26,094 nucleotides of DNA from a virus. The position numbers were made by a program, and so were the translations under genes. Shown piece by piece: positions 22,474 to 25,802 of the stretch (its first letter is position 1; every line of letters starts with the position of its first letter). Location of the stretch: the IMG/VR virus record IMGVR_UViG_3300025687_000279, positions 1-26,094 of that record. One strand, given 5' to 3'. A model generated the notes under the pieces. That model had not been told where the DNA came from and searched no databases. It worked only from the letters and a program-made list of their open reading frames with translations.

Positions 22474-22567
22474 TGGAGGCCCGTTAGCTTGTCATGCAGC
22501 CTACTGGTTTGGAAACCAGCATCTGAACGACTTACCCCTCTAAAGGACTTCTATACCGCTACGGGCC
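22474..22567 (-). tRNA. aberrant tRNA-like gene A (no canonical T-loop)
   Basis: 94 nt with a perfect 7-bp acceptor (GGCCCGT/ACGGGCC), U73 and encoded CCA. The interior is odd: a 5-bp stem CTGGT/ACCAG closes a 6-nt loop TTCCAA, resembling a Gly(TCC) or Trp anticodon arm that has lost one base. A canonical TTC T-loop is missing; the equivalent place holds GCATGACA in an imperfect stem. It may be a decayed tRNA or a distinct tRNA-like RNA. Identity not assigned. Confidence 0.45.
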
Positions 22568-22583
22568 AAGAGCGGTTTCTAAA

Positions 22584-23459: not shown

Positions 23460-23822
23460 CTATCTTTTCTTCTTCTTTCCTAAGATTTCAACCTTGACTG
23501 TGCAAACTCCACCGCAGCCGATCTTTCTAGCGGCTGCTCTTGATAGGTCTAATTGTCTACCCTTGATGAACGGGCCCCTATCATTAATTACTACTATTAC
23601 CGATCTTCCTTTGTGTGTAACTCTCAGTCTTGTGCCAAAAGGCAATGTCTTGTGTGCTGCTGTTAAAGCATTTGGATTGAATTTTTGCCCGCTTGCAGTA
23701 ATCTTGCTTTTACTACATTCGCCAGGCTTGACGCAATCATACCAAGATGCTACCATTGTTGTAGCATTACTGGGTGCTGTCATTAAAAAAAGGACAGCAA
23801 AGGCTGCTATTAATAGTTTCAT
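23460..23822 (-). CDS. RlpA-like secreted double-psi beta-barrel protein
   Basis: 120 aa from the ATG at 23820-23822, preceded by AAGGAAAA. The signal peptide MKLLIAAFAVLFLMTAPSNA is followed by a domain with ASWYD, SGQKFNPNALTAAHKTLPFG, RVTHKGRSVIVVINDRGPF and the catalytic-type Asp in QLDLSRAAARKIG. These match RlpA/DPBB lytic transglycosylases acting on denuded glycan. Extra Cys pairs (CVKPGEC; CGGVC) could form disulfides in the periplasm. No lipobox, so soluble. Together with the L,D-transpeptidase it is the second exported wall enzyme in the tRNA array. Confidence 0.88.
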   Translation of the reverse strand: MKLLIAAFAVLFLMTAPSNATTMVASWYDCVKPGECSKSKITASGQKFNPNALTAAHKTLPFGTRLRVTHKGRSVIVVINDRGPFIKGRQLDLSRAAARKIGCGGVCTVKVEILGKKKKR

Positions 23823-23838
23823 TGTTGTTTTCCTTGTA

Positions 23839-23932
23839 TGGAGCATCTGACAGGATTCGAACCTGCATTAGGTACTTCTACCCATGTCCAGTTACCTTAC
23901 TCTCCGTTCGTAGCGGAGGGGGCTACAGATGC
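23839..23932 (-). tRNA. aberrant tRNA-Arg(ACG)-like gene B (no D-arm in usual place)
   Basis: 94 nt with perfect acceptor GCATCTG/CAGATGC, U73, CCA and a normal T-arm (TTCGAAT). A perfect anticodon arm CTCCG-CTACGAA-CGGAG gives anticodon ACG, but only 7 bases separate it from the acceptor, so there is no room for a D-arm. Instead 35 bases follow the anticodon arm, including D-arm-like text GGTAACTGG...TACC. It is the only arginine candidate in the array. Confidence 0.5.
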
Positions 23933-24554: not shown

Positions 24555-24654
24555 GGTGCGAGGAGAAGGATTCGAACCTTCATGGTGCCTGCGTGAGTTC
24601 ACGCTTTACGGCTACCCTCCTGCCGGATGCTTTTACCAGTTTCGCCATCCTCGC
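24555..24654 (-). tRNA. aberrant tRNA-like gene C (Leu-like ends, no clear anticodon)
   Basis: Perfect acceptor GCGAGGA/TCCTCGC, A73, a leucine-type D-arm (GGCGAAACTGGTAAAAGC) and a normal T-arm GAAGG-TTCGAAT-CCTTC. The encoded 3' end is ACCT, not CCA. Between D- and T-arms lie 46 bases with stems CGGC/GCCG closing a 9-nt loop AGGAGGGTA, and GCGTG/CACGC closing AACT. No loop has the required pyrimidine-T before an anticodon. Either a decayed or interrupted tRNA-Leu, or a tRNA-mimic RNA. Confidence 0.45.
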
Positions 24655-24832: not shown

Positions 24833-24915
24833 TGGTGGGCAGGTGTGGTTACGCTCCACTCCCCTATGGACGGGTTTTACAGACCCGCTGCTGAAACTAC
24901 CAGCTTTACCTACCC
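24833..24915 (-). tRNA. tRNA-Tyr(GTA) with atypical T-loop
   Basis: 83 nt, acceptor GGGTAGG/CCTGCCC, A73, CCA. Perfect anticodon arm CGGGT-CTGTAAA-ACCCG. The T-stem GTGG/CCAC closes the loop AGCGTAA, lacking the universal TTC; the D-loop also lacks a clear GG pair in the usual setting. Amino-acid identity is clear, but tertiary D-T contacts would be abnormal. Confidence 0.8.
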
Positions 24916-24921
24916 GTTGTA

Positions 24922-25557: not shown

Positions 25558-25561
25558 ATGT

Positions 25562-25795
25562 ATTCTATTATCAAAGACACATGATGACGATTTGCTTGAC
25601 GCATTCTTACCCAACTTAAGGAACAGCACCATGTGTCTGTGATAGTAGAATGTGAGGCTGTGCTGAGTCACAGACCCTCACTGGATATTTCGCTACTCAG
25701 TGCGCCCTTGAGTGAGCAAGGGTAACTCATAGGAACTTAACAATGTCAAACAGCGACCGCATCTTATCCCGCGCGGCTAGGATCAACTCGTCTTA
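25562..25795 (-). ncRNA. structured leader RNA of the tRNA array
   Basis: The 250 bases between the promoter and tRNA-Asn hold a 22-bp stem (25562-25583 with 25630-25651; one G-U and one mismatch) around a 46-nt loop. Further hairpins CTGTG/CACAG, CACTG/CAGTG and CCCTTG/CAAGGG (6 bp, 6-nt loop) follow toward the promoter. No gene on the minus strand. It may be a processing signal, an antitermination leader or a standalone RNA; the sequence does not decide. Confidence 0.5.
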
Positions 25796-25797
25796 CT
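25729..25797 (+). other. possible plus-strand mini-ORF sharing YspA start sequence
   Basis: ATAGGAACTTAACAATG here is identical to the ribosome-binding site and start of the YspA-like gene on the other strand. It opens an 18-codon frame (MSNSDRILSRAARINSSY). No convincing plus-strand promoter is seen, so I do not call it a gene. Confidence 0.2.
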
Positions 25798-25802
25798 AAT
25801 CT

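Follow-up and report, generated by a model that had tools for sequence, protein, structure and literature searches.

The window, that is, the whole stretch of DNA analysed, is an entire virus record of 26,094 bp which is possibly a fragment, and it codes for a phage-type ribonucleotide reductase, ThyX, a primase and other proteins, together with an array of 23 tRNAs called by ARAGORN. Within this array, 7 nt away from tRNA-Cys and on the same strand, lies a 94-nt element (23839-23932, minus strand) whose letters read as tRNA anatomy with the arginine anticodon ACG (Table 1). Its order is GCATCTG, a 7-nt linker (TAGCCCC), an anticodon arm, 35 nt, a T-arm, CAGATGC and TCCA, which confirms on the minus strand the anatomy given in the original prediction made from the letters of this DNA. 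Full pairing is present in the acceptor (7/7), the T-arm (5/5) and the anticodon arm (5/5), followed by TCCA, while a D-arm hairpin is absent between acceptor and anticodon arm, where there are only 7 nt. Directly downstream of the element, inside the tRNA array, an RlpA-type lytic transglycosylase (Pfam DPBB_1) is encoded at 23460-23846 on the minus strand.

Table 1. Parts of the putative arginine tRNA gene in the window, with the basis of each assignment.
Feature	Position	Strand	Basis
Whole tRNA gene with displaced D-domain, anticodon ACG (Arg), 94 nt, 3' TCCA encoded	23839..23932	-	sequence and family covariance model
Acceptor stem, 5' strand GCATCTG	23926..23932	-	7/7 pairs with 23843-23849; covaries across family
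U8 A9 equivalents (TA), in the normal place	23924..23925	-	invariant in 69-sequence alignment, the search patterns having demanded TA
D-stem, 3' strand CC (= positions 23-24), directly 5' of anticodon arm	23921..23922	-	covaries with 23895-23896; in minimum-energy fold
Anticodon arm, 5 bp, loop CTACGAA; anticodon ACG at 23909-23911	23902..23918	-	sequence, family covariation
D-stem, 5' strand GG (= positions 11-12), moved 3' of anticodon arm	23895..23896	-	covariation and minimum-energy fold
Putative D-loop text AACTGGA (= A14 A15 C16 U17 G18 G19 A20); A20 at 23887	23887..23893	-	numbering by analogy
Variable hairpin TGGGTA-GAAG-TACCTA, 6 bp; long members only	23869..23884	-	single-sequence fold
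T-arm, 5 bp, loop TTCGAAT	23850..23866	-	sequence, family covariation
Acceptor stem, 3' strand CAGATGC	23843..23849	-	sequence, family covariation
Discriminator U73 and encoded CCA	23839..23842	-	sequence

The element is not among the ARAGORN calls in the window, and the Rfam tRNA model RF00005 gave no match there with default filters; with lax filters it scores 33.6 bits against a cut-off of 29, the D-arm being skipped. A purpose-built family covariance model, for which the element was one of the 69 sequences used, assigns it 84.2 bits, and the next match in the window, an ordinary tRNA, 30.2 bits. A tmRNA identity was rejected, as an anticodon arm is present and ARAGORN reports no tmRNA in the window. 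A rival 5-bp stem in the gene (GTAGC...GCTAC) was also discarded, since by eye it is not kept in the corresponding genes of phages Zooman and XacN1 and the minimum-energy fold favours the tRNA arms.

The ARAGORN tRNAs of the window cover 18 amino acids and a tRNA-Tyr read by eye makes 19, to which the arginine element is added, so that the earlier count of 19 amino acids plus arginine is right for the window. The accompanying claim that this is the only arginine tRNA stands within the window and goes no further, because the record may be a fragment and because in the near relatives L029 and L070 another gene built in this way, with anticodon TCT, lies just beyond the window's right end. From their anticodon, these TCT genes would serve AGA codons. 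In 29 open reading frames of the window, arginine is encoded by CGU (128), CGC (60), CGA (16), CGG (1), AGA (159) and AGG (17), and the usage of the CGN box, rich in CGU, CGC and CGA and poor in CGG, suits an inosine-modified ACG tRNA. When the window region was compared with sequenced phages by DNA similarity, just three short matches were found.

At least 146 distinct members of this displaced-D design, 76-96 nt long and almost all unannotated, were collected by relaxed scans (some with a free linker, one in which the letters following the anticodon arm were free as well) and by a structural scanner which left the anticodon and position 20 free. From 174 distinct parses, 28 were dropped, mostly mis-parsed ordinary tRNAs; the parses kept have a linker starting with TA and either an arginine anticodon with GGA (GGC in L117) or an isoleucine anticodon with GGT, one CCT parse of L086 being left out by name as canonical-like. 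The strict core pattern occurs in 83 stretches among 2.9 million viral contigs, which excludes chance for the element, and in three contigs among 84,980 bacterial and archaeal species genomes. Searches with blastn against named phages gave unannotated matches inside the tRNA arrays of Stenotrophomonas phage DLP_6, Xanthomonas phage X1, Rhizobium phage RHph_I1_18 and Microbacterium phage Zooman, and further members are found in Mesorhizobium phage Cp1R7A-A1 and Xanthomonas phage XacN1. In all 104 rows listed, a member and the ARAGORN tRNA closest to it share a strand, often with 2-12 nt between them. More than one member is present in 20 of 189 loci, such as L117, whose TCT, GCG and TCG genes jointly cover the CGN and AGR codons. 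When the family model was run against 150 genomes of one bacterial order, two matched, one of them being the genome used as the centre. A member is also present on a conjugative Sinorhizobium meliloti plasmid (CP050513; L005 5001-5082), 5 nt from a tRNA-Arg(TCT) which is the only other ARAGORN tRNA in that 10-kb stretch.

The members share one order: acceptor strand, U8 A9, D-stem 3' strand, anticodon arm, about 5 nt, D-stem 5' strand, D-loop (A14 A15 Y16 U17 G18 G19 A20), a linker or variable hairpin, T-arm, acceptor strand and NCCA. The linker between acceptor and anticodon arm is 7 nt long in 134 of the 146 members and 8 nt in the other 12, and the region following the anticodon arm ranges from 17 to 37 nt. 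Full stems are the rule, with 7/7 acceptor pairs in 144 members, 5/5 anticodon-stem pairs in 138 and 5/5 T-stem pairs in 142. The text AAYUGGA which follows the D-stem 5' strand is that of a tRNA-Arg D-loop in the same order.

The bases of the D-stem are the linker positions four and three before the anticodon arm, which pair with the two bases just before the following TAA. Pair 23-12 is formed in 146/146 members (CG 131, UA 7, GC 6, AU 2) and pair 24-11 in 145/146 (CG 115, GC 19, AU 9, UA 2; L321 fails), and none of 2000 shuffles matched the pairing observed at these two positions. In the subset retrieved by a pattern with both D-strands free, the corresponding values are 93/93 and 92/93. 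Besides CC/GG, the variants CA/UG, CG/CG, CU/AG, GC/GC, UC/GA, UG/CA, AC/GU and UA/UA are found. In the alignment of 69 sequences (A2), from which members with 8-nt linkers or unusual spacing were omitted, the D-helix is 99.3% paired with 20 double-sided changes, and the whole structure is 99.7% paired as against 34-43% when slid by one to three columns; a second alignment (A1) took in 87 of 88 representatives, including members with 8-nt linkers and unusual spacing. We conclude from this covariation that the predicted D-stem combines its usual 3' strand, beside the anticodon stem, with its usual 5' strand, joined to the D-loop and now placed across the anticodon arm.

A general pair 25-10 was rejected: it is formed in 24/146 members, a value reached by 6 of 2000 shuffles, but in only 7/93 of the unbiased subset, below the shuffled mean; variants such as CAC/GTG and CGG/CCG do have it. 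At 22-13, an A-U or G-U pair is present in 43/146 members, and as position 13 is invariant covariation cannot show there. Mutual information in the family alignment revealed no clear tertiary pair beyond the helices and a link between positions 35 and 20. RNAalifold by itself did not draw the 2-bp D-helix, and in single-sequence folds of six members it is clear in the window member alone.

The anticodons of the 146 members are almost entirely those of arginine (141: ACG 112, TCT 16, TCG 7, CCT 4, GCG 2), with five for isoleucine (GAT 4, TAT 1). The loop CTACGAA, which was fixed in most search patterns, is present in 110 of the 112 ACG members. Loci with a TCG member mostly have a neighbouring GCG gene, so that the two jointly cover CGN, and some of these GCG genes are members themselves. 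Position 20 is A in 140/141 arginine members, the exception having GGC for GGA, and U in 5/5 isoleucine members, these tallies being partly circular because the filter joined the anticodon with the letters at position 20. A pattern leaving position 20 free still gave A20 in 83/83 arginine members, and a scan which demanded a base other than A at this position, with the anticodon free, returned six stretches, three of them tRNA-like and all Ile-GAT, and three not tRNA-like.

According to excerpts of a review on tRNA identity (PMC9976931), A20 is the chief determinant for ArgRS, and bacterial isoleucine tRNAs are given with U20 and A73. All five isoleucine members have U20 and A73, and the ArgRS set of the same excerpts (A20, C35, and G36 or U36) is present in 140/141 arginine members if the positions are taken as equivalent. 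The discriminator varies among the 141 arginine members (T 80, G 37, A 22, C 2) and is U73 in the window gene; the text of the review gives A/G73 for E. coli tRNA-Arg, and its table also lists U73 for bacteria (PMC9976931). Such a link between position 20 and the anticodon, read from the gene sequences, is what selection for charging would leave. An encoded CCA is missing in 20/146 members, and the isoleucine members (L135 4504-4584, L240 961-1040, L350 9034-9113, L357 7038-7118 and L358 6020-6100) have CAA or CAT with no encoded CCA.

Among loci with at least 10 ARAGORN tRNAs, a canonical Arg-ACG gene is present in 3 of 44 representative loci of the ACG family and in 20 of 33 de-duplicated control loci pulled by a tRNA-Trp pattern (p=4e-7); the raw counts were 2/66 and 22/36. 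The frequencies of canonical TCT, CCG, CCT and TCG genes are alike in ACG-family loci and controls. Likewise, a canonical TCT gene is found in 0/17 loci with a TCT member compared with 46/130 loci with the ACG type only (p=0.0015, sets not de-duplicated). The ACG member thus seems, from gene content, to take the place of the ordinary Arg-ACG gene. Both forms occur together in L001, L004, L273 and L283 (4/56 representatives), in L044, and in phages DLP_6 and Zooman. The original prediction had argued for function from arginine being the sole missing amino acid; the gap is real in the window, while the argument is weaker than stated, given the possible fragment and these cases of co-occurrence. 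Relatives carry intact members, rather than the decayed copies which had been named as a sign against function.

The element at 23839-23932 is very probably a working arginine tRNA encoded by the phage, with a strand order other than the cloverleaf. The earlier suggestion of a rearranged or unusually folded arginine tRNA, whose anticodon arm is followed by D-arm-like text, is supported by the covariation, the preponderance of arginine anticodons, A20 and the replacement pattern. As the D-stem encloses the anticodon arm, the RNA would be nested, with the anticodon stem and the displaced D-stem forming one continuous hairpin and the D-loop serving as a single-stranded connector to the T-arm. G18 and G19 of this loop may make contact with the T-loop, so that the normal L shape results, and the usual stacking and tertiary contacts could persist under the other connectivity, since the D-stem encloses the anticodon arm. 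ArgRS would charge the RNA through A20, C35 and G36, A34 would be converted to inosine, and CGU, CGC and CGA would be read during infection.

An alternative, which we regard as unlikely, is that the element takes no part in decoding and imitates the anticodon arm of tRNA-Arg, so as to divert TadA, an anticodon nuclease or some other host factor, with the tRNA ends serving only processing and stability. The near-invariant loop of the ACG form would fit such a role, and phage tRNAs are known to counter tRNA-targeting defences, as described in excerpts of PMC10264068. However, the same architecture is found with other anticodons, nearly all for arginine; TCG loci mostly pair with a GCG gene for full CGN coverage, ordinary isoacceptors are missing where the element occurs, and position 20 tracks aminoacylation identity, none of which a decoy would require.

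It is also unlikely that the RNA is simply D-armless, as in mitochondria, with an incidental CC...GG match and the text after the anticodon arm being a long variable region. A helix of just 2-3 bp, left out by RNAalifold, would agree with this, and evolved E. coli can make do with a His tRNA that lacks the D-arm (PMC11551756). Against it, all four Watson-Crick types covary at 23-12 and 24-11, with the double-sided changes counted above, and the D-loop text is retained together with G18 G19 and the identity-linked position 20.

If the RNA were a precursor from which cutting and rejoining yield an ordinary cloverleaf, as with the circularly permuted tRNA genes found in algae and in one archaeon (excerpts of PMC3978253), its strand order would likewise be unlike the cloverleaf, but this is very improbable here, because the acceptor ends and CCA are outermost and a cloverleaf could not be regained by circularising the RNA and cutting it once. 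A decaying or chimeric pseudo-tRNA, to which the lack of an ARAGORN call and the overlap of members with such calls in only 3/146 cases might point, is scarcely credible in view of near-perfect stems and compensatory changes across diverse phages.

Compared with canonical tRNA-Arg (ACG; RF00005), the members have the same acceptor, T-arm and anticodon arm, U8 A9, G18 G19 A20 D-loop text, loop CUACGAA, NCCA and place in tRNA arrays, whereas their D-stem strands flank the anticodon arm, their D-loop lies between the anticodon arm and the T-arm, and their discriminator is often U. Thus the members resemble functional tRNAs yet fail the cloverleaf test at the place of the D-arm, and they would form a class of non-cloverleaf tRNAs. 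No description of a tRNA with such a displaced D-arm was found in the open-licence PMC literature. Mukai et al. (2017) reportedly described novel-cloverleaf tRNAs and allo-tRNAs from metagenomes, natural bacterial deviants with altered acceptor and T-stem lengths; those are reported to stay cloverleaf, whereas the members re-order the D-arm. Circularly permuted tRNA genes also have segments in unusual order, but according to excerpts of PMC3978253 their halves are swapped, their acceptor ends are internal and a circular intermediate gives an ordinary cloverleaf, while the members have their acceptor strands outermost and would keep the new order in the mature RNA. D-armless mitochondrial tRNA-Ser and the laboratory 'mini HisT' share the short acceptor-anticodon linker; these are mitochondrial or artificial and have no D-arm (PMC7609411, PMC11551756), while the members keep a D-stem and D-loop elsewhere and belong to bacterial phages.

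A further likeness is found in the 'RNAX'/tRNA pseudogene of phage T5 (AY734508, AY587007), in which GTAACTGGTGGAAGAT is followed by a T-arm, with GGT as in the isoleucine members. This region (L258 1470-1550 in AY587007) is the best non-member in the family model (37.3 bits), and it was not counted as a member, as its linker and anticodon arm depart from the family layout. T5 RNAX could, on this likeness, be a relic of the displaced-D class.

Why the D-arm was re-wired allows more than one answer. It is conceivable, though less likely than not, that the change conceals phage tRNAs from host systems which recognise ordinary tRNAs and degrade or modify them, while the phage tRNAs would remain acceptable to ArgRS, IleRS, EF-Tu and the ribosome, which read the three-dimensional surface; resistance of phage tRNAs to host tRNA-attacking enzymes through anticodon-loop changes has been proposed (excerpts of PMC10264068). 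A neutral rearrangement, followed by spread through exchange between phages, would be an equally plausible origin.

The family suggests, as judged from sequence comparison, that bacterial protein synthesis can use a previously undescribed tRNA layout, and that a tRNA can keep its contact points under an altered strand connectivity. It would work on bacterial ribosomes in nature, and the phage hosts are named and mostly culturable (Stenotrophomonas, Xanthomonas, Rhizobium, Mesorhizobium, Microbacterium). The members could help to find out which features of a tRNA are actually recognised by ArgRS, IleRS, EF-Tu, RNase P and modification enzymes, and the displaced-D design may be a new scaffold for orthogonal tRNAs. 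Arginine appears to be 'missing' in many phages by ARAGORN or default Rfam because displaced-D tRNAs are overlooked.

Several other unusual features are present on the minus strand of the window. A tRNA-like sequence at 22478-22572 has a 7-bp acceptor (GGCCCGT/ACGGGCC) and TCCA, lacks a TTCGA T-loop and contains an oddly placed hairpin, TGGTTTCCAAACCA; it has no ARAGORN call and is kept at 98-100% identity in L028, L032 and L039 and at 82% in L070. A tRNA-Leu-like gene at 24557-24654 scores 37.5 bits with Rfam and has no ARAGORN call; by eye its anticodon is CAG with G for U at position 33, and among the loci compared it has matches in L032 and L039 only. The tRNA-Tyr at 24834-24917 (GTA by eye), which has neither an ARAGORN nor a default Rfam call and whose T-loop is without TTCGA, has similar sequences in five more loci besides the near-identical L032 and L039. 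Finally, at the end of the array (25560-25800), there is a long structured non-coding stretch, for whose 241 nt a single fold gives -73 kcal/mol; parts of this stretch are kept at 88-96% identity in L029, L052, L070 and L083.
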